55,033 nucleotides of DNA from assembly GCA_028876065.1 (NCBI GenBank), contig JAGWTI010000011.1:1-55033 (forward strand). Reading direction: 5' to 3'. Positions 44,977-55,033 of this stretch are shown piece after piece (position 1 is the stretch's first letter; every line of letters starts with the position of its first letter). Under the pieces are notes generated by a model. It saw only the letters and a program-made list of their open reading frames with translations. It searched no databases and was not told where the DNA came from. The stretch is from Nitrospirota bacterium (lineage in GTDB: Bacteria > Nitrospirota > Nitrospiria > Nitrospirales > Nitrospiraceae). A program made the translations under genes and the position numbers.

Positions 44977-45906
44977 TTAGGAGTCCACGATATCTTCATC
45001 AAAGAAATCGGAATCGATCTTTTTGATATCGTAGGTAGACATGATGGATACCCCAACATCATAATCAATCATATAGCCGGCAAGCTGCATGCCGTCAATG
45101 AGGACAACTCGTGATGCATAGTCTCTCACCGATGCAAGAGCGTCTTTGGTAAAGGTCGAGGTTGTTATAAAAATGCCCTTGATTGCCTTTTTCTTTGAAA
45201 GCGCGCCTGCAAACTGGTCGATATCAGGACTGCCAACCGGTTTGTCGTTCCATCGTTTGGCCTGGACATAGATACTGGCTAGGCCGAGTTTGTCTTCTCG
45301 AATTACCCCATCGATTCCACCGTCTTTAGTTTTCCCCACAGCCTGCCCTGCGTCCTTGAGCGAACCGCCATAGCCCATTCGCACTAACAGCAGGATGACG
45401 AGTCGCTCAAAGAACTGAGGGCTGCACTTTTTTACTCTTTCGAGAGTCTCTGACGCTAGTGCTTCGCGCAATTGTTCGTACTGAGTCGCTATTGACTCGA
45501 TGGGCGTTTCCGCTGAAATAGCCAGCCCTGGTGCCTTTTCAGTTCGTCGCTCCTTCTTGCGTCCTTGGAACTCGCGGAACTCTTCAAACTGCGAGAGAAG
45601 GCTCCCATCGATATGGTTCGGCTTCGATTTCAGAATGGAACGGCCTCGTTCTGTAATTCGAAAGTGGCCTCGCCTAGCTGCTTCAAGGAGACCAGCTTTT
45701 TGCAGGTATGTACGAGCCCATGATACTCGTGATGAAAACTTGAAGGTGCCACCACTTGGGAGAAGTTCTTGTCGTTCATCATCCGTAAGGTTGAATTGAT
45801 CAGCAAGTTTCCCGACGGCGGAAGGAAGGGGCACCTCCTGCCCATTCGCTTCAGCAGCGAGCTTTAGCAGAGGAAGCATCAAGGTTTCGTAGTCAGGAAT
45901 TGACAT
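44977..45906 (-). CDS. mrr: Mrr-family restriction endonuclease
   Basis: 309 residues. N-terminal winged helix Mrr_N (1-95: MSIPDYETLMLPLLKLAAEA, RVSWARTYLQKAGLLEAARR). A C-terminal PD-(D/E)xK domain (about 160-305) with KDGGIDGVI (Asp199) and YVQAKRW (Gln215, Lys217) forms the active site. Mrr cuts methylated DNA and can restrict modified foreign DNA. AT-rich, less biased codon use than its neighbours suggests transfer. No Shine-Dalgarno is visible; a promoter lies upstream. Confidence 0.88.
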   Translation of the reverse strand: MSIPDYETLMLPLLKLAAEANGQEVPLPSAVGKLADQFNLTDDERQELLPSGGTFKFSSRVSWARTYLQKAGLLEAARRGHFRITERGRSILKSKPNHIDGSLLSQFEEFREFQGRKKERRTEKAPGLAISAETPIESIATQYEQLREALASETLERVKKCSPQFFERLVILLLVRMGYGGSLKDAGQAVGKTKDGGIDGVIREDKLGLASIYVQAKRWNDKPVGSPDIDQFAGALSKKKAIKGIFITTSTFTKDALASVRDYASRVVLIDGMQLAGYMIDYDVGVSIMSTYDIKKIDSDFFDEDIVDS

Positions 45907-45940
45907 GGCGCCAATTGATTAAGTTTGAACAAGTTTTCTG

Positions 45941-45969
45941 ATTTTCTGCGGTTTTCGAGGACTTGTCAA
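45941..45969 (-). promoter_or_regulatory. Predicted promoter of mrr
   Basis: Minus-strand TTGACA (45969-45964), 17-bp spacer, GAAAAT (45946-45941). The predicted leader is about 28 nt. Confidence 0.45.
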
Positions 45970-45989
45970 TGTTCTTGGGGAAGGGGGGA

Positions 45990-46085
45990 GCTATCAGCAG
46001 TTAGCTCTCAGCTTTTCAGCAAGAGAATGAGCGCTGGGATAGTTTTTGGGTCTGTGGCTGATTGCTGAGGGCTGAAAGTTGACGG
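45990..46085. repeat. Stuttering CAGC/GCTGA repeat
   Basis: Words TATCAGCAGTTAGCTCTCAG and CTTTTCAGC on one side, and GGCTGATTGCTGAGGGCTGA then AAGTTGACG on the other, form an imperfect inverted repeat. It separates mrr from the HigBA locus and shares words with the blocks at 10976 and 35151. Confidence 0.55.
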
Positions 46086-46102
46086 CAGCCTGCGAGTGCT
46101 CT

Positions 46103-46387
46103 TCACCCCGCAAGCTTGGCGACGCGAAGCTGTTTGCGGCGCTGCTCGGCGTGCCACAGGTCGTACTGGGTCTGCTGATTGAGCCAGCTTTCCGCCGACG
46201 TATCGAATGCAATGGACAGGCGAACGGCCATCTCCGGGCTGATGCCAGCACGGCCGTTCAGAATAGCAGACAGAGTTTTGCGGCTGACGCCCAACGCCTG
46301 GGCTGCTTGCGTGACACCCACGCCGAGCGGTTCCAGGCAAAGAGTTTTGATGATGGCCCCAGGGTGAGGCGGGTTATGCATGCGCAT
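46103..46387 (-). CDS. higA: HigA-type antitoxin and repressor
   Basis: 94 residues from the ATG at 46387, which has AAAGGT 7 nt upstream and gives the usual HigA start ([20 protein letters not shown]). The helix-turn-helix is [20 protein letters not shown] and the dimer end [20 protein letters not shown]. An in-frame ATG at 46417 would overlap the toxin. It binds the HigB toxin and normally represses its own promoter. Confidence 0.9.
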
Positions 46388-46400
46388 CGTGGTGACCTTT

Positions 46401-46679
46401 CTAGTGGTAGTCTTCATAATCAACGGCCTCCGCGTCTTTTTCAATAAACCGAAACGTGATCCGCCAGTTCCCGCTGACTGAAACCGCCCAGGTGCCTTTT
46501 CGGTCGCCTTTGAGTGGGTGAAGGTCCAGGCCCGGAAGCGCCATATCACGTGGAGCGGTGGCCGCGCTCAGGAGGCCTAAGATCAAACGAAGCCGTTCGG
46601 CATGGTGGGCTTGGATGCCAGACTTGTTCCCCGTCTCGAAGAATCTACCCAAGCCCTTATGCTTGAAGCTCCGGATCAC
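46401..46679 (-). CDS. higB: HigB-type toxin (RelE superfamily)
   Basis: 92 residues from GTG. Motifs: [40 protein letters not shown] and [20 protein letters not shown], ending [11 protein letters not shown]. It is placed before the antitoxin gene, the order diagnostic of HigBA. HigB cleaves mRNA on the ribosome. Confidence 0.9.
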
Positions 46680-46763: not shown

Positions 46764-46885
46764 GGCTGCTCAAACAGGTCAGCCAACGAGGCCGCAGCCG
46801 ATGGAAGCACCGGAGGCGTAGCCTCTGGGCTACGTTGAGGATGGTTTCGAGGCGAGAACGAAGTTGGGGGCCTGTTTCAGCAGCC
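46764..46885. repeat. 122-bp element with 15-bp terminal inverted repeats (MITE/BIME-like)
   Basis: Ends GGCTGCTCAAACAGG (46764-46778) and CCTGTTTCAGCAGCC (46871-46885) are inverted repeats with one mismatch. The interior is GC-rich with smaller hairpins such as CGTAGCCTCTGGGCTACG. It encodes nothing and begins 3 bp past the stop of the MEMO-like gene. From memory, similar elements recur in Nitrospira genomes; this was not checked. Confidence 0.6.
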
Positions 46886-46887
46886 TG

Positions 46888-48150
46888 CTAGAAGAACGCC
46901 ATGCTGGCGTACGTCACCGTCGAATTGTACTGGTCCGTGATGCCCCGGTCGTAGCGCAGCACTGTTCCCTTTTCCGCCTGGATCAGCCGCAGGAGCGTGT
47001 AGATCGTCGCGAATCCGGAGATGCGGCGCTGGTCCCCTTCCTTCTGGATGAACGAGGCGAAGGATGCAGGGTTCAACTCCTCCACCGGCTTGAGCATCTC
47101 CAAGTCCGTCTGCATGCAGCGGTGGAAGGAGAAGTCCGTCGGCGGCGACGGGTCGCCGTACCTCATGCCGAGGTGGGCCAGTTCCGCGCTGCCGATCAGA
47201 CAGTAGTCCCGTCCCGTCTCGGCCAGGGCCTGCTTGAGGGTGCCGATGAAGGTCTCGACCTGTCCGGCCAAGTCCTTCATCTCCGGGTCTACCATGCAGG
47301 TGGGGGGGAAGGAACAGAGCACCGGCAGGATCGTAAACGCGGCTTTGCCGGCCATGGCATGTTGGAGGAACGGGAGCTGGAATTCGATCGTATGTTCGTT
47401 CCTGTGGCTGAGGTCTTCCTCGAAGAAGGGCTCCCCTCCCAGCTTCCTGAATCGTGCGACCAAGTCCCGATCCACCGGCACCCGGCCAAGGGGAGTCTCG
47501 AAGTCCTTGTCGGTGACGGCGAAGGGGCGGTGCAGGCCGGCGGTGCTGGTGCCCAGGATGACGAAGAGGCTGGGCGCCTCCGCCTCCTGCAGCTCCTTGT
47601 AGGCCCAGGCATAGATCGGCCCAGCCTGTTTGATTTCATAGTGGGGGGCCACGAGGCCCTTGATCTTCTTGCCCTTGTTCTCGGACGGCTTGAAGTCCGG
47701 TCCTTCCTTGGACGTATAAAATCCTTCAACTTGGGCTTTGAGTTTCGCTCCATCTGCTTCATAACTCTTGCCGGAAAACTTGGCCTGCCTGACCGGGGCC
47801 TTGCGATAGTCAGCCTGGGCGGCACGCTTGGCCGCCTCGACTTTCTCCCCTTCCAGAAAGAGCTTGTCGTCCAGGTCGGCCACGAGCCGTTGCAGCCGGT
47901 CCGGCATGAAGAATTCGCCGAAACGCTTGAGGTAGGCGGCGCCGATCTGTTCGAGGGAATGTTCGCCATCGAGGTGCTGGATAATGAAAAAATAATGGAC
48001 CGGCAGGACGAGCTTTTCCTGGCTGAGCCCGGTCGGGTCCCAGAGGACCACATACTGCTCTTCCTTCTCCTTGATCGGGGAATACTGGAGGTTCCGCAGG
48101 AGCGGGAACTGCTTGGGGTCTTTGGGAGAGTCTTGTATGGCCTGAGTCAT
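46888..48150 (-). CDS. AmmeMemoRadiSam system protein B (MEMO1-like) with PqqD/RRE-like N-terminal domain
   Basis: 420 residues from the ATG at 48150. The C-terminal part (about 160-420) is MEMO-like: KGLVAPHYEIKQAGPIYAWA (His170), LFVILGTSTAGLHRPFAVT, RNEHTIEFQLPFLQHAM and CLIGSAELAHLGMRYGD. The first about 105 residues look like a small winged helix of the PqqD/RiPP-recognition type: VHYFFIIQHLDGEHSLEQIG, AAYLKRFGEFFMPDRLQRLV, ending ADLDDKLFLEGE. AMMECR1 and radical-SAM partners are not in the window. It is last in the GlmL-DUF6754 module, with a gap of 88 bp before it. Confidence 0.8.
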   Translation of the reverse strand: MTQAIQDSPKDPKQFPLLRNLQYSPIKEKEEQYVVLWDPTGLSQEKLVLPVHYFFIIQHLDGEHSLEQIGAAYLKRFGEFFMPDRLQRLVADLDDKLFLEGEKVEAAKRAAQADYRKAPVRQAKFSGKSYEADGAKLKAQVEGFYTSKEGPDFKPSENKGKKIKGLVAPHYEIKQAGPIYAWAYKELQEAEAPSLFVILGTSTAGLHRPFAVTDKDFETPLGRVPVDRDLVARFRKLGGEPFFEEDLSHRNEHTIEFQLPFLQHAMAGKAAFTILPVLCSFPPTCMVDPEMKDLAGQVETFIGTLKQALAETGRDYCLIGSAELAHLGMRYGDPSPPTDFSFHRCMQTDLEMLKPVEELNPASFASFIQKEGDQRRISGFATIYTLLRLIQAEKGTVLRYDRGITDQYNSTVTYASMAFF

Positions 48151-48238: not shown

Positions 48239-48991
48239 CTACTCCTCCGACGGCTCTGTCTGCGGCCTACGCTTCATGCTCCACAGGACCAAGCCGATGA
48301 CCGTGACGCCGGTCAGCCAGAGGGAGGCCCGGTCGTACTCGGGACCGGCATATTCGATCAGGTCCGTGAGCCGGCCGATCAACAACGACATACGGGCCAT
48401 GACCGTATAGCCGAAGGCCGCGCCGAAGGCAATCATCAAGAAGAGGATGCCGGTTCTGGCCGCGACTTCCACCGGCCCTTTATGCTCGATCGAGAAGAAG
48501 AAGTAGAAGAGCACGGAGACGACGCCGACCAGCAGGATGATGGCATTCAGGTTGCTGGCCGGATTGGCCAGGCTGAGGGTGAACGTCACGCCGCCTTGTG
48601 CCAAGGACGCCAGCGGGCGCACCGTATCCTCGATTTGCTTGAGGATGAAGGAAGAGACGATCCGGGGAATGGCCAGACCGGACCCGACCCCGACGATGAA
48701 GGCAAAGGCGATGCGCGACATCCAGGTGGCCTTGGGGACGTACCGAGCCAGCATGAGCATGCCGATAGCCAGGGGAACCAGCAGCGACCAGTCTCCCTGC
48801 TTGACCATCGGTTCGTAGATCAGGCGGATGACCACCGTGTCGTAGGTCTTGACGATGGCGTAGCCGACGGAGATACCCACGTAGAGGTGCTCCGCCAGCT
48901 TGAAGAGCGGGTTGTCCTCATAGAGGAAGGTGAAGATGAAGAGGGTCAGTCCCGTTGCGACCCAGGCGCCCAATAACAATTCAAACGACAT
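48239..48991 (-). CDS. Polytopic membrane protein of the GlmL-DUF6754 module
   Basis: 250 residues with about seven TM helices: LLLGAWVATGLTLFIFTFLY, HLYVGISVGYAIVKTYDTVV, LLVPLAIGMLMLARYVP, IAFAFIVGVGSGLAIPRIVS, AIILLVGVVSVLFYFFFSI, TGILFLMIAFGAAFGYTVMA and a last one near 225. It starts directly after the previous gene's stop (no gap). No transport or catalytic motif recognised. Confidence 0.75.
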   Translation of the reverse strand: MSFELLLGAWVATGLTLFIFTFLYEDNPLFKLAEHLYVGISVGYAIVKTYDTVVIRLIYEPMVKQGDWSLLVPLAIGMLMLARYVPKATWMSRIAFAFIVGVGSGLAIPRIVSSFILKQIEDTVRPLASLAQGGVTFTLSLANPASNLNAIILLVGVVSVLFYFFFSIEHKGPVEVAARTGILFLMIAFGAAFGYTVMARMSLLIGRLTDLIEYAGPEYDRASLWLTGVTVIGLVLWSMKRRPQTEPSEE

Positions 48992-49840
48992 TTAGGAGTG
49001 ACTCCCCTGTCCCTGGGCCTGCTTGGCCCTCCGGATGGACAGATAGAAGACGTTGCAGAGGATCACCAGAATGATGATCGCAAAGTGCGTGACGGACTGG
49101 GCATCCATGCCGGCGACGGCCCGGCCTTTTTGGCCGATCAGGACTTCGTATTCGGCTGCGCCGCGCAGGCCGCCGATCAGACCGTTGATCTGGCCGCTGC
49201 GCAGGAGCGGATAGAGCCCCGGCGCAATCACGCCGGTGCACCCGCCGCCGAGCTCGAACTTGTACTTGTCCTTGCCGAAGACGTACCAGGTCTCGATCCC
49301 CGTCGTTCCCGCCGCCAGGCTCACCACATAGCTCACGTCGCGGAGGTTCTGGATACCGTTCAGGACCGCCAGCCCTTTGGTCGGCTGGTTACCGTAATCG
49401 GTCGGGAATGCCTTGTAGAGGTCCTGCCCCATGTTGATGATGACCGAGCTGCCGCCGGGGCTCCAGCCCAGGAACACATAGTCCTTGCCGTTGACCTTGC
49501 CCTGCTCCTCCGCAATCCTCGTGATGACCTCGTTGGCCATGCCCGTGCCGGGAAGCCAGAGGGTCATGCCGATTACGCGCAGGTTGTGCTTGAACGCGTG
49601 GCGCAGCAGGGCCACGGCCTGCGGGTAGAGCTCCGGCTTGGAGGCCGGATCGAAGTCCAGCGAGAGGAGGAAGACCGAGCCTTCCGGCAGGGATTCGATG
49701 TAATCGTGCACGGCCTTCACTTCCGGAGACACCCGGATGGCCAGCCCGACCGGGTACAAGAGCGGCAAGAGCGTGCAGAGCCCGATCACGAGAAAGATGA
49801 TCCGGCGGTCGATTTTCAACATGCGTTCGGCGAACGTCAT
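48992..49840 (-). CDS. Bitopic membrane protein with large exported or cytosolic domain, module member
   Basis: 282 residues. TM near 14-36 (IIFLVIGLCTLLPLLYPVGL), a domain of about 210 residues (EGSVFLLSLDFDPASKPELY, MTLWLPGTGMANEVITRIAE, KDYVFLGWSPGGSSVIINMG, LGGGCTGVIAPGLYPLLRSG) and a C-terminal TM (THFAIIILVILCNVFYLSIR). The alternating strand/helix pattern suggests a Rossmann-like fold, but no nucleotide motif is evident. Family not recognised. Confidence 0.75.
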   Translation of the reverse strand: MTFAERMLKIDRRIIFLVIGLCTLLPLLYPVGLAIRVSPEVKAVHDYIESLPEGSVFLLSLDFDPASKPELYPQAVALLRHAFKHNLRVIGMTLWLPGTGMANEVITRIAEEQGKVNGKDYVFLGWSPGGSSVIINMGQDLYKAFPTDYGNQPTKGLAVLNGIQNLRDVSYVVSLAAGTTGIETWYVFGKDKYKFELGGGCTGVIAPGLYPLLRSGQINGLIGGLRGAAEYEVLIGQKGRAVAGMDAQSVTHFAIIILVILCNVFYLSIRRAKQAQGQGSHS

Positions 49841-49851
49841 GAGCCGCTCCT

Positions 49852-49920
49852 CGTGAAACGTGAAGCGTATCTCGTTCGGAAAATATTGCGCTTCACGCGA
49901 TACGTGCGACGCTTCACGCT
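49852..49920. repeat. Stuttering GTGAAGCG/CGCTTCAC inverted repeat
   Basis: CGTGAAGCGT (49859-49868) pairs with ACGCTTCACG (49909-49918), and a second GCGCTTCACG lies at 49888-49897. The 17-mer CGTGAAACGTGAAGCGT is identical to that at 918-934. It lies inside the membrane-protein operon. Confidence 0.6.
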
Positions 49921-50569
49921 ATTCCTTCCCGCCGCCCAGATAGGCGCGCTCGACTCCGAAGATGATCTTGAGCGACAAGGCGACGGCGCCCAGGCTGACG
50001 CCGATGAGGATCGCGCGCCGCACCGAGGCGTTGAGCACGTTCAAAATCCACTGCGTGATGTCCCCGCTGATCGGCACCAGATACTCTCCCAGCGGCACCC
50101 GGCCCATCATGACGATGATCGCGGCGATCAGGAGCACCGCCGCTTCGCGGCTCCTGGCCCGGAACGAGCGGTAGGCGGCCGAGGCGATGAAAAAGGCCAG
50201 GATGGCGAACATGGTGCCCTGGAGCGGGACCATCATGAAGTTGTAGATCCAGCCGAAGGCGGTCATGCCGCCGTTGACCGTTTCCTTCCCTTCCAGCCAG
50301 AGCCCGATGGCGATGGTGCCCAGCATGCCCGCATAGAGGATGAAGCTGTAGCCCCAGCCCGGCTCCCGGCGGCGGATCTTGACCGCATGGATGTGGAAGA
50401 GGCTGGTGACGCCCAGCACGAGCGCGAACCCGCCGATGATCTGGAGCCACTTGGTGACGGTGGTCAGCATTTCCTCGGACGCGGGATGCGGCACGTAGTA
50501 TTGGGCCGCGAAGACGATACCGGTCACGAGCGTGATGAGCAGCGGCAGTTGGCGACGGAAGAAGATCAT
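49919..50569 (-). CDS. Polytopic membrane protein, module member
   Basis: 216 residues with about five or six TM helices (PLLITLVTGIVFAAQYYVPH, IIGGFALVLGVTSLFHIHAV, FILYAGMLGTIAIGLWLEG, GTMFAILAFFIASAAYRSF, EAAVLLIAAIIVMMGRVPLG). A short loop holds FHIHAVKIRRREPGWGYSF, with two His next to basic residues. Its start overlaps the stop of the DUF6754 gene by 4 bp (ATGA). Family not recognised. Confidence 0.75.
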   Translation of the reverse strand: MIFFRRQLPLLITLVTGIVFAAQYYVPHPASEEMLTTVTKWLQIIGGFALVLGVTSLFHIHAVKIRRREPGWGYSFILYAGMLGTIAIGLWLEGKETVNGGMTAFGWIYNFMMVPLQGTMFAILAFFIASAAYRSFRARSREAAVLLIAAIIVMMGRVPLGEYLVPISGDITQWILNVLNASVRRAILIGVSLGAVALSLKIIFGVERAYLGGGKE

Positions 50570-51828
50570 TTCAAATCCTTGAAGAGGTCCAGCACGATCG
50601 TTTGAAAGTCGGTTCCGAACACAATGCCGACGGTCGCGAGGGCGGTGCCCAGCCCCAGCACGCAGAGGATGATGCCCTTGCCGATGTCCTGCCCGCGCAA
50701 CGTGCCCACCTGCACCGGCTCACGGGACAAATAGGCGCTGGCCGCGTAGAGTTCCTCCCCGATCAGCGTGTAGTCGCAAGTCGTCACGAAGAACGGGAGC
50801 TGATGGTCGGAGTCGGTACCGGCGATCTGGATGGCGCCGGTGCTGGCGCCGGTCTCGGTCAGCAGGAGCGACTCGGCGAAGTAGGAGCCCATGAAGAAGT
50901 TGGCGGCCGGCTTGCGGCGCAGCATGATGCCGTCCACCGCCGCCGTGTAGCTGAACTGGTCGGTCGTGATGAAGAAGTTGGCGTCTTCCTTGAAGGCATC
51001 CGGCTTGCCCGCTTCCAGGTACGACTGTTTGGTGATCTCCTGGCAGACGGCCATGACGATCGGGTCCCGATGCGGCACCAGCAGCTCGGTCTCATACATG
51101 GCGACGCGTTTGCCCACGCGCCCCAGGATGACGGCGGCGGCGATCGTGGAAGGTTCGCTCATGTCGCCGGCGCCGGTGAGGTAAAGGATCGGCTTGCCCA
51201 GCTCCGTGGCCCGCCCGATGGCCTCGTCCACCGCGTCCAGTCCGGCGATGCGCCGCAGGAAGATCTCCCGTTTCTTGGCTGCCTGGATGGATGCGAAGAG
51301 GATGCCTCCGAAGATCAGGACCAGGAGGAAGTTGTTCGCCTGGTTCCAATTGATCCAATTGGGCTGGGGGATCGCCGGCGCGGCTCTCGTCTCGCCCCGC
51401 TCGGAGTCGTTGCTCATGATGACGGTCACCACATAGGCGGTCCCGTCCTTGAGTTCGACGCCTTTGCCGGTCCTGATGTCGTACTGGTGGTAGTCTTTGG
51501 GCACGGAGCGGGCCCACCAGGGAGTTTTGACCTCCCGTGCATAGTGGCTGTTGGCGGGAAAGTCCGCCAGTTGCTTGGCGGCCGCTCCGTTTGCAGGGTC
51601 CGAAAGCAGGATCCGGTAGTGGGCGGAGGCGTCTTCTCCCGGCTCCGGCGCCCAAGTGACCGTGAGCCCTCCGCCTCCGTCGCTCGGCGTGTCGAAGACC
51701 TGCACGTCGTGGGGCGCCGAGACTCCCGCCGCCCAGAGGGTGGTCGGCCAGACTAGGGCAAGGGTGATCGCCAGAACCAGCAGACGCGACCGTCCCGTCA
51801 TGCCGGTCATGTCACATTTCGCGTTCAT
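50566..51828 (-). CDS. FN3-DUF6754 membrane protein
   Basis: 420 residues. Signal peptide or first TM (LLVLAITLALVWPTTLWAAG), a fibronectin type III domain at about 37-140 (VSAPHDVQVFDTPSDGGGGL, TVTWAPEPGEDASAHYRILL, GTAYVVTVIMSN), a TM at about 165-183 (NNFLLVLIFGGILFASIQA), then the DUF6754 domain (about 190-380: KPILYLTGAGDMSEPSTIAA, GKRVAMYETELLVPHRDPIV, GSYFAESLLLTETGASTGAI) and a final TM (GIILCVLGLGTALATVGIVF). DUF6754 has no assigned function. Overlaps the next gene by 4 bp. Confidence 0.82.
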   Translation of the reverse strand: MNAKCDMTGMTGRSRLLVLAITLALVWPTTLWAAGVSAPHDVQVFDTPSDGGGGLTVTWAPEPGEDASAHYRILLSDPANGAAAKQLADFPANSHYAREVKTPWWARSVPKDYHQYDIRTGKGVELKDGTAYVVTVIMSNDSERGETRAAPAIPQPNWINWNQANNFLLVLIFGGILFASIQAAKKREIFLRRIAGLDAVDEAIGRATELGKPILYLTGAGDMSEPSTIAAAVILGRVGKRVAMYETELLVPHRDPIVMAVCQEITKQSYLEAGKPDAFKEDANFFITTDQFSYTAAVDGIMLRRKPAANFFMGSYFAESLLLTETGASTGAIQIAGTDSDHQLPFFVTTCDYTLIGEELYAASAYLSREPVQVGTLRGQDIGKGIILCVLGLGTALATVGIVFGTDFQTIVLDLFKDLK

Positions 51829-51834
51829 CGCATG

Positions 51835-52050
51835 CTACGAGATGTGGACTTCTTCCTGGGCCAGCCACGCGGCATACTCGATCGCTTGCTGGATGTCCTC
51901 ACGCTGCAAGTCGGGATAACCGTCTAGTATCTCCTCAAAGGGTGCACCATGTGCAATCTGACCGACGATCACCGAGACAGGGATGCGCATCCCGCGAATG
52001 CAGGCTCTCCCCCCCATGATCTTTGGGTCAAACGTAATACGGTCAAACAT
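51835..52050 (-). CDS. DUF433 protein (VapB-like antitoxin family)
   Basis: 71 residues, a complete DUF433 domain: FDPKIMGGRACIRGMRIPVS, VIVGQIAHGAPFEEILDGYP and EDIQQAIEYAAWLAQEE. AAAGGAG precedes the ATG. DUF433 proteins are usually antitoxins with a PIN-domain partner (VapC-like or COG4634), but the gene downstream is DUF6754 and none is near. It sits inside the module and may have been inserted, or has another role. Confidence 0.85.
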   Translation of the reverse strand: MFDRITFDPKIMGGRACIRGMRIPVSVIVGQIAHGAPFEEILDGYPDLQREDIQQAIEYAAWLAQEEVHIS

Positions 52051-52068
52051 GATGGTCTCCTTTCCGGA

Positions 52069-53202
52069 CTAGCCTTCGATGAGTTCCACGTTGGCTCTGG
52101 GAATCACGGTCGAGCTTCCGTCCGCAAAGCCGACTTCGAGCACCCGGACGTGACTTTCGGTTTCGATCTGTCGCAGATCCGGCGGGAGCGATTTCACGGA
52201 TCCGATCCGGCCGAACAAGGGATCGCGGATGATCCGAACCTGATCGCCGGCCCGGATGCCGGTCCGCTCGTCCGCGCTCGCGCGTGCCGATGAAACGGCT
52301 GAGGGCTGGGCCGGTTTCGGGATGATGATCTCCGGTCGGATGACGCCGGCCCTGATTTGCGTGGCCCCGGAGATCGAGGCTTTCTGCCCCACGTGGGCGG
52401 CCAGCAGGTTGAAGGTCTTGGCCGCCATGGGGATCACGCCGAACCCTTCCGTGATGACCAGAGTGAATCCCACCCGTTCGGTTCCGGTGATCGCCACGCC
52501 CAGATCATAGCCCAGCAGCTCGCGTAAGTCCTTGTCGTGGATGCCGCCGACGACCAGGGCGGCCACGCCGATCTCCCTGGCCTTGGCCATCGTGTCGGCC
52601 CCGAGGAACGACCCGCCGACGACGATCTGGTCTTTCATGGAGGGATTCAATCGGTCCGGCGTCAGCCGGTCCTCCGGCGACTGGACCGCCATGGCCAGCT
52701 GCCCCCAGGTCTCGCCCCCGATGCCGAAGATGCCTTGGATCAGACTGCCGGTGCATTCCACCGTGACGCCTTGCCGCGGCAGATGCTCGACGATGGTCCC
52801 GTCCACGTAGGCCAGCAGCTCCAGGGCCTTCGGCGGTTCGCGCAAGAGCACCTGGCCCGTCACCAGCGAAACGGACTCCAGCTTGCCTTCGATGGGCGAC
52901 CGCACTTCGGTCCTGAACCACTTGATCAGAGGTTTGCTCTCGGCGATCACTTCATCCTTGCCGATTGCCTCCCCTTCTTTTTTGAGCACATAGTCCCGGA
53001 TCTCATCCGGAGCTGCGCCGAGCAAGTTGGCTACGTTCACCACGTGGACTTTGCCGGCCAGTTCGGTCCGCGCGACGACGGTGTCCGCCTGAACCCGGTT
53101 GCCGGTTTCAACCGTGACAGTGCCGGGAATGGGCAGCAGCCGGCGTTTTCTGAGCACCGCCGTCTCGGTGACCGTCAGACCTGGTGTGTAGGAGTGAGCC
53201 AT
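52069..53202 (-). CDS. Swivel-domain/KOW protein of the GlmL module
   Basis: 377 residues, no signal peptide. Two beta-hammerhead, biotinyl/lipoyl-like segments: PIPGTVTVETGNRVQADTVV (about 25-60) and EVRSPIEGKLESVSLVTGQV (about 97-120), without a modified Lys motif. A middle Gly-rich domain (GGSFLGADTMAKAREIGVAA, GYDLGVAITGTERVGFTLVI) and a C-terminal KOW-like unit (IRAGDQVRIIRDPLFGRIGS...VIPRANVELIEG). It follows the GlmL-type gene in a conserved-looking order. Function unknown; an adaptor or carrier is plausible. Confidence 0.7.
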   Translation of the reverse strand: MAHSYTPGLTVTETAVLRKRRLLPIPGTVTVETGNRVQADTVVARTELAGKVHVVNVANLLGAAPDEIRDYVLKKEGEAIGKDEVIAESKPLIKWFRTEVRSPIEGKLESVSLVTGQVLLREPPKALELLAYVDGTIVEHLPRQGVTVECTGSLIQGIFGIGGETWGQLAMAVQSPEDRLTPDRLNPSMKDQIVVGGSFLGADTMAKAREIGVAALVVGGIHDKDLRELLGYDLGVAITGTERVGFTLVITEGFGVIPMAAKTFNLLAAHVGQKASISGATQIRAGVIRPEIIIPKPAQPSAVSSARASADERTGIRAGDQVRIIRDPLFGRIGSVKSLPPDLRQIETESHVRVLEVGFADGSSTVIPRANVELIEG

Positions 53203-53218
53203 ATTTTAGCTACAAGGC

Positions 53219-53316
53219 AAAATGATGAACGATGAATGATGAACGGCGGACAAGAACTTCATGGTTCACTCTCCTCGTATCTTACATTCATCGTTCTGCG
53301 TTCAGCATTCATCGTT
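53219..53316. repeat. Stuttering GATGAACG/CGTTCATC inverted repeat
   Basis: AATGATGAACGATGAATGAT then GAACG at 53219-53245 is complementary in pattern to CATTCATCGTTCTGCGTTC and AGCATTCATCGTT at about 53285-53315. The right arm runs over the stop codon of the GlmL-type gene. Confidence 0.6.
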
Positions 53317-55033
53317 GCGGGTACAGGTCCACCGCCTGGTACCACTTCGTGAGCGCCTTGAGCCTGGCCTGGTTGTCGCTCGGCAACTGGAGCGGGCGGC
53401 CTCGCCCGTCGAGCAGCAACCCCACGACCCCTCCCCTGACTTCACGGGTGACCGGAGCGCCTTTGCCCGCTCCCAGGTCCACCGTCTTGACCGGGCGCAT
53501 CTCGACCGTGGCCCGCTCCTCCGTGCCGAGGGGGAACAGCTTCAGGTCGCCGAAGGCCAAGGTGCCGGTCTTGGGCTGGCGGTTCCCGCCGAACGTGATC
53601 GTATAGTCGGCGCAGCGTTCCCCGTCTTTCCCCTGTCCGATCGGCGCGACGCAGGTGCCCAGATACACCATACAGTCGCGCACGAACACGTCCGTCGCCG
53701 CCTGCTCGTTGACCGTGGAGAGGACGCCCAGGTGCGGCATCATGAAGATGCTGTCCACGGAGAGGACCGTGAAGCCGAGCGGCTCGTAGGCGTCCACCAT
53801 CATCAGCATGGATTGGATGCGACGGGGTGCGTGGGACAGGATGCCGCCGCTCCCGACGATCAGGTCCAGCTTCAGCATGTCGATCAGCGTCTTGCCCGAG
53901 GCCTGCTGCTCGAAGATGTCCGAGATCGTGCGCTCCTGCTGGACGCCTTTCAAGCCGGTGGCCAGGGACTTGTGATGCATGAGGGCCAGCCGTAAGGCTT
54001 CCCGCGAGATGGCGTGCTCGATCTGGAGTTCGTCGAGGGTCTGGGGGATGGTGGTCGGCCGGATCATCTTGTTCTTGATCCGGTTCCGCAAGGTCTGTTC
54101 CTCGATCGTAAACGGCACCCAGCGCATGATGTTGGCCAGGCCCGCCTCGGCCAGGACGTTGGAGATGCTGTAGGACATGCCCAGGTTGGCGCTCACGGTC
54201 CGATTGAAGGTGCCGCCGAAGACGGAAAACACGTCGGTGGTCGCGCCGCCGATATCCACGCCGATCAGGTTCAAGTTTTCCCGCTTGGCGATGGTCTGCA
54301 TGATCAGCCCCACCGCGGCGGGGGTCGGCATGATCGGCGCGCCGGCCCAGTCGATCAATTTCTTGTAGCCCGGCGCCTGGGCCATGACGTGCTCCAGGAA
54401 CAAGTCGTGGATTTTGTTCCTGGCCGGCGCGAGGTTTTCCCGCTCGGGCGTGGGACGGAGGTTCTCGGTCATGACCAAAGCGGCCTTCTGCTCCAGGATA
54501 TCCTTGATGCGCGGCTGCGCGTCCTTGTTGCCCGCGTAGATGAGCGGGAGCGAATAGCTCATGCCGAGCCTGGGCCGAGGCTCGGCCGCGGCGATGTACT
54601 CGGCCATCTCCACCACGTGGGTGACGGTGCCGCCGTCCGTCCCGCCGGAGAGGAGGATCATGTCCGGCCGCAGCCTCCTGATGCGTTCGATCTTCTCGTG
54701 CGGCAAGCGGCCGTCGTTGCTGGCCAGGACGTCCATGACGATCGCGCCGGCCCCCAGGGCGCAGCGTTGCGCGCTCTCCCCGCTGATGTTTTGCACCACC
54801 CCGGCCACCATCATCTGCAAGCCGCCTCCGGCGCTGCTGGTGGAGACATAAATGTCCACGCCGACTTTCTTGCCCTGCTCGTCCCGCGCCGGCGTAATGA
54901 TGCGCTCCCCGTCCAGAATCTTACGACCGGAGAGTTCTTCGACTTCGGCGAAGGCGTTCAGGACGCCGCGGGTAACATCCTCGAAGGGGGCTTCCACCGT
55001 GGTGGGCGCTTCGCCCCGGAAGGTCTGCCGGTA
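53309..55033 (-). CDS. GlmL/MutL-family ASKHA ATPase, 5' end outside the window
   Basis: At least 574 residues; the frame is open to the window end, so the true start is upstream (a GTG at 54997 is the first start inside). The MutL (PF13941-type) hallmarks are visible: DMILLSGGTDGGTVTHVVEM, ENLNLIGVDIGGATTDVFSV (phosphate-binding loop of the actin/HSP70 fold), FNRTVSANLGMSYSISNVLA and IVGSGGILSHAPRRIQSMLM. In clostridia GlmL is encoded with the B12-dependent glutamate mutase subunits GlmS and GlmE; neither is seen here. It is first of the module visible in this window. Confidence 0.88.
   Translation of the reverse strand, partial: YRQTFRGEAPTTVEAPFEDVTRGVLNAFAEVEELSGRKILDGERIITPARDEQGKKVGVDIYVSTSSAGGGLQMMVAGVVQNISGESAQRCALGAGAIVMDVLASNDGRLPHEKIERIRRLRPDMILLSGGTDGGTVTHVVEMAEYIAAAEPRPRLGMSYSLPLIYAGNKDAQPRIKDILEQKAALVMTENLRPTPERENLAPARNKIHDLFLEHVMAQAPGYKKLIDWAGAPIMPTPAAVGLIMQTIAKRENLNLIGVDIGGATTDVFSVFGGTFNRTVSANLGMSYSISNVLAEAGLANIMRWVPFTIEEQTLRNRIKNKMIRPTTIPQTLDELQIEHAISREALRLALMHHKSLATGLKGVQQERTISDIFEQQASGKTLIDMLKLDLIVGSGGILSHAPRRIQSMLMMVDAYEPLGFTVLSVDSIFMMPHLGVLSTVNEQAATDVFVRDCMVYLGTCVAPIGQGKDGERCADYTITFGGNRQPKTGTLAFGDLKLFPLGTEERATVEMRPVKTVDLGAGKGAPVTREVRGGVVGLLLDGRGRPLQLPSDNQARLKALTKWYQAVDLYPQR

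Follow-up and report, generated by a model that had tools for sequence, protein, structure and literature searches.

Concerning proteins in which a RiPP recognition element (RRE) is fused to a MEMO domain, a literature search returned one description, a single phrase in the 2025 paper 'Structure-based discovery and definition of RiPP recognition elements' (PMC12710340), where a PF01875 Memo-like protein bearing an RRE fold is mentioned and the fusion is termed unprecedented in RiPPs; no other description was found. The main text of that paper is without lineage, context or active-site analysis, and metal-site loss, distribution and neighbouring genes are worked out here. The architecture, which is the same in the protein described below, is itself not new; the metal-less Nitrospirales branch of it appears to be new.

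The N-terminal domain of the fusion compares with PqqD and with stand-alone or fused RREs (TbiB1, PbtF, ThcOx, LynD/TruD, MccB, CteB and SuiB), whose defining order is three strands followed by three helices (PMC12710340). It shares with these proteins the fold and the strand/helix order, a 'DG..S...I' segment and a terminal helix with a leucine-rich end; unlike them, it rides on a MEMO domain, occurs without a cluster of precursor and modifying enzymes, and falls under the Pfam and NCBIfam cut-offs. The C-terminal domain shares its fold with human MEMO1 (PDB 7KQ8 and 3BCZ), in which the iron ligands are H49, H81 and C244. In the human protein, the C244S or H49A variant binds no iron, H131 and H192 are not metal-coordinating, the H192A or D189N substitution leaves iron binding nearly unchanged, and no dioxygenase activity was detected with the substrates tried (PMC11081632). 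Compared to human MEMO1, every Nitrospirales member is without C244, and the protein studied here has also lost H81 and carries an extra N-terminal RRE-fold domain. The third comparator is the AmmeMemoRadiSam system protein B (TIGR04336), with which the fusion shares the sequence family of its MEMO half and from which it differs in not tracking AMMECR1.

Architecture and fold of the two domains

The window analysed in this study is a stretch of 55,033 nucleotides of Nitrospirota bacterium DNA (contig JAGWTI010000011.1). The fusion gene occupies positions 46888..48150 of its minus strand (ATG at 48150, stop codon TAG at 46890-46888) and encodes 420 aa in an architecture that is conserved end to end in relatives. 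The interval 47830-48150, in which an earlier note had recognised a PqqD-like domain joined to a MEMO-family protein, corresponds to the first 107 codons of this reading frame. The MEMO identity of residues 121-419 (46894..47790, minus strand) is beyond doubt, as this half matches PF01875 in Pfam (E 2e-38, 132.5 bits against a cut-off of 27) and TIGR04336 in NCBIfam (E 4e-33), and is aligned to human MEMO1 by Foldseek with a TM score of 0.80 on the target.

The N-terminal domain spans approximately residues 13-105 (about 93 residues; 47836..48114, minus strand). AlphaFold2 modelling of the full-length protein with 32 relatives returned a mean pLDDT of 92.3 and a pTM of 0.89, and modelling of the N-domain alone returned a mean pLDDT of 86.4 with an identical order of strands and helices: strands at residues 22-28, 31-37 and 46-50, followed by helices at approximately 51-58, 66-77 and 83-95. 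A predicted fold unrelated to PqqD would have refuted the earlier note; the PqqD/RRE strand-helix order was seen instead. When the N-domain model was aligned to known structures using VIA-align, the top rank was taken by TbiB1 bound to its leader peptide (Z 9.7), with PqqD (5sxy) at Z 8.1 and the PbtF RRE, in its peptide-bound form, at Z 7.9 among further matches, Z values of 7-8 being common by chance in this comparison; the list is rich in RREs, also including ThcOx, LynD/TruD, MccB, CteB, SuiB and TglHI, and the only named DNA-binding winged helix listed scored Z 3.6. When 56 N-domains were compared with 16 PqqD proteins at the profile-profile level by hhalign, probabilities were 92.3-94.2% and E-values 1e-7 to 5e-7 with all five PqqD masters tried, and 100 column-shuffled control versions gave at most 8.5%.

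Based on these findings, the PqqD/RRE-type fold of the N-domain is settled and its homology to PqqD is very likely, bearing out by AlphaFold2, VIA-align and hhalign the earlier note's proposal of a PqqD-like fold joined to a MEMO protein. The design of the protein is an old one with two domains, in which the PqqD/RRE fold comes first and the MEMO domain, of extradiol-dioxygenase (LigB) fold, comes second.

The PqqD relationship, which the earlier note had caught by eye, is missed by single-sequence searches alone. Residues 1-107 of the window protein matched no Pfam family, did not reach the curated cut-off of PF05402 and were without a significant match in PHROGs, and in NCBIfam they matched only ScmD, a PqqD-related model, below threshold (E 0.014; 15.6 bits where the cut-off is 100). 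Among 26 relatives, PF05402 matched two weakly (best E 0.003) and the PqqD model TIGR03859 matched five directly (best E 1e-4), some of them distant. Foldseek searching with the N-domain model returned nothing under E 0.001, the first RRE (TbiB1) standing at rank 3 with E 0.15, and a profile HMM search of PDB sequences with the N-domain found PqqD chains at a non-significant E of 0.2-0.65. Troponin C occupied the top rows of the latter search (E 0.02-0.1); since the N-domain model is no EF-hand, this match was read as a chance EF-hand-like 'DGxxS' similarity and rejected.

A peptide- or protein-binding role of the N-domain is plausible by analogy with solved RREs. RRE-like winged helices are also found in non-RiPP proteins, and it might be argued that the N-domain is a purely structural or dimerising winged helix of RRE type that binds no peptide, as in the ribosomal oxygenases NO66 and MINA53 and in rickettsial lysine methyltransferases. 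This is the more arguable because PKMT (Z 8.5-9.1), MINA53 (Z 7.1-8.3) and NO66 (Z about 5) are among the VIA-align matches, neither a precursor nor a fixed partner gene was found near the fusion, and the most conserved motif of the domain, P-x-L-R-x5-P (residues 16-25), precedes strand 1 and could form an interface with the MEMO half. We regard such a purely structural role as rather unlikely, given that the best structural match is a leader-binding RRE, that the profile match is PqqD itself, and that this role alone would leave unexplained the greater conservation of the RRE half in Nitrospirales.

Distribution, selection and the iron site

Nearly all Nitrospirales carry the fusion: it is present end to end in most of the sampled genomes of the window's family, Nitrospiraceae, and in 16/16 genomes of a sister family. 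Full-length fusions also occur in Caldithrix, Acidobacteriota (17 of the 149 genomes sampled from this phylum), Planctomycetota and one Deltaproteobacterium, and the architecture is stable across at least five phyla. Over 70 pairs, the N-domain had a median dN/dS of 0.042 and the MEMO domain one of 0.075, values which are descriptive as the pairs share ancestry; both domains are under strong purifying selection and the gene is not dying. Mean identity of the N-domain against that of the MEMO domain was 0.75 versus 0.69 in Nitrospiraceae and 0.78 versus 0.66 in the sister family, a relation that is reversed among the other phyla (0.31 versus 0.36). In Nitrospirales the RRE half has taken over from the catalytic half as the more constrained one, as expected if binding outlived chemistry.

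Judged by its ligand residues, the iron site of the MEMO domain has decayed in Nitrospirales. The window protein retains the equivalent of human H49 as H170 (47641..47643, minus strand), has lost that of H81, which is T203 (47542..47544, minus strand), and has lost that of C244, which is S378 (47017..47019, minus strand). In a set of 54 sequences from Nitrospirales, the C244 position is occupied by S in 40, by L in 10 and by A, F, T and M in one each, so that cysteine is lost from all; the H49 position is replaced in 43 (T in 28, N in 11, S in two and A in two, with H kept in 11); and the H81 position, mapped by a gap-free G-x-x-H motif as the gapped alignment sits one residue off, is replaced in 29 and H in 25. 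None of the 54 keeps H, H and C together. The three ligands are intact in 21/21 full-length relatives outside Nitrospirales, in one partial relative from the same phylum sample (L134) and in the stand-alone MEMO paralogs that were checked. The MEMO-domain tree groups the Nitrospirales into a single clade (local support 0.82), so that one early loss of the iron site, followed by differing paths of decay, is the simple reading.

The residues surrounding the lost ligands raise the question of a remodelled site. The equivalent of H192 is kept in 54/54 Nitrospirales sequences and that of H131 in 45/54, position 189 is E in 39/54, and the MEMO half is under the strong purifying selection described above; with these histidines remaining, a remodelled metal site is possible. 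The further reading that the Nitrospirales MEMO domain is still a metalloenzyme, its site shifted to the H192, H131 and E189 equivalents, is in our estimation improbable. H131 and H192 do not coordinate metal in the human protein, where H192A and D189N barely alter iron binding (PMC11081632), most sister-family sequences have N or S at position 189, and H131 is replaced by Q or P in the other nine of the 54 sequences. The preferred reading, in which the iron site was lost and the protein was retained, also bears on the earlier note's suggestion of a peptide substrate for the MEMO chemistry, which is weakened because the MEMO domain of the window protein is without two of its three iron ligands.

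Neighbouring genes and the AMMECR1 and radical SAM sets

In Nitrospiraceae the fusion gene follows a tight and conserved operon, of which all six genes lie on the minus strand of the window. In order, these encode a MutL/GlmL-like protein (53309..54997; PF13941, E 2.7e-114), a protein matching no Pfam family (52069..53202), a protein with DUF6754 (50566..51828; PF20539, E 1.6e-113), and three further proteins without a Pfam family, of which the first (49919..50569) and the last (48239..48991, next to the fusion gene) are predicted membrane proteins and the second (48992..49840) lies between them; at least two of these three look membrane-like. Four of the six genes have neither a Pfam nor an NCBIfam match, and no description of DUF6754 was found in the literature search. 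DUF6754 is present in 61/246 sampled genomes of the phylum, all belonging to Nitrospiraceae, and the six-gene operon (48239-54997) is absent from the sister family. The domain also went undetected in 20 genomes from distant carriers of the fusion, a result to which little weight attaches as the named control genomes were likewise without it.

The sister family has neighbours of a different kind. Genes of an oligopeptide importer (SBP_bac_5, two permeases and two OppD/F-type ATPases) lie upstream of the fusion in 11/12 loci (L122-L133), sometimes separated from it by other genes. This adjacency is suggestive, and such lineage-specific neighbours may reflect plain synteny. A cyclophilin gene flanks the fusion on the side opposite the importer in nine of these loci. 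Outside Nitrospirales, no conserved neighbour of the fusion was found.

Nor does the neighbour analysis reveal a radical SAM enzyme, a cyclodehydratase or another RiPP enzyme adjoining the fusion gene. The leader-like short peptide that the earlier note had proposed to look for did not emerge from the small-ORF scan, which yielded no convincing precursor beside the gene; the candidates resemble shadow frames and dispersed repeats and were rejected. The lack of conserved RiPP-type neighbours and of a convincing precursor argues against a local RiPP cluster. It could still be envisaged that the fusion serves as an enzyme in RiPP maturation and that the gene of its precursor peptide lies at another place in the genome, considering its RRE fold and the other PqqD proteins that the genome encodes. 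We consider this improbable, in view of the results of the neighbour analysis and small-ORF scan, of a near-universal presence in Nitrospirales that is more housekeeping-like than that of a natural-product cluster, and of the degenerate MEMO site in this order.

Some additional features of the genome were recorded. A dispersed repeat at 46866-46890 ends at the stop codon of the fusion gene, and its 15-base core has 10 copies in the genome at no more than one mismatch and none in a reversed control. Just downstream of the fusion, 44977-46679 holds a Mrr-type restriction endonuclease (Pfam) together with a toxin-antitoxin pair that looks HigBA-like by eye. Another part of this genome (L147:1187-1892) carries a stand-alone PqqD gene and, after it, a gene resembling, by eye, a lasso-peptide B2-type protease. 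A long protein with HlyD-like features, also by eye, lies in the stretch around a weak PqqD match (L146:1832-3748; G000:C78), and similar long frames that match PqqD are seen again in other Nitrospirota genomes.

The earlier note had placed the protein with the MEMO/AMMECR1/radical SAM sets, a connection that did not hold, since AMMECR1 tracks a second, stand-alone MEMO protein and the fusion is also present where AMMECR1 is lacking. AMMECR1 was detected in 17/60 genomes of the window's family, almost exactly those with the stand-alone MEMO, and a radical SAM protein (AmmeMemoSam) exceeded the cut-off in 21/60; across these 60 genomes the fusion occurs with or without AMMECR1 and the stand-alone MEMO, and is present in most of those lacking AMMECR1. 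The radical SAM gene that the note had proposed to look for elsewhere in the genome does exist: contigs C95, C121 and C132 of the source genome hold AMMECR1, the stand-alone MEMO and AmmeMemoSam radical SAM, the window being C125. Regarding in-frame stops in the AmmeMemoSam radical SAM paralogs, the one that was checked proved to be a normal gene end. The fusion stands outside the AMMECR1/radical SAM set.

A proposed role for the fusion protein

In the mechanism that we propose, the RRE half would bind a peptide or an extended protein segment along strand 3 and helix 3, in the manner of solved RREs, and wherever a lineage has retained the H/H/C iron site, this partner would be acted upon by the MEMO half. 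With the iron site decayed in Nitrospirales, the most likely role there is that of a non-catalytic adaptor which would hold a peptide or protein partner, and in Nitrospiraceae this partner is probably to be sought among the products of the DUF6754 membrane operon. The Nitrospirales protein is likely a pseudoenzyme, which would be kept as a peptide- or protein-binding adaptor. The explanation in its entirety, joining a peptide- or protein-binding RRE half to a non-catalytic Nitrospirales adaptor with a decayed iron site, is one to which we would assign about an even chance. A broader proposal is that the MEMO proteins of several phyla are RRE-guided, peptide- or protein-modifying iron enzymes operating outside RiPP clusters, one of which became in Nitrospirales a dedicated pseudoenzyme, serving as adaptor to a complex in the membrane or in peptide transport; this we put forward as doubtful.

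The present findings advise against labelling these Nitrospira genes as RiPP enzymes or as functional members of the AmmeMemoRadiSam system. The existence of close relatives with intact and with decayed iron sites provides a built-in pair by which binding may be separated from chemistry. MEMO proteins are found across life, and their natural, stable fusion to a fold that in other systems binds peptides points to partners that are peptides or proteins; if true, the RRE-guided reading would give a lead to the substrate class of MEMO.
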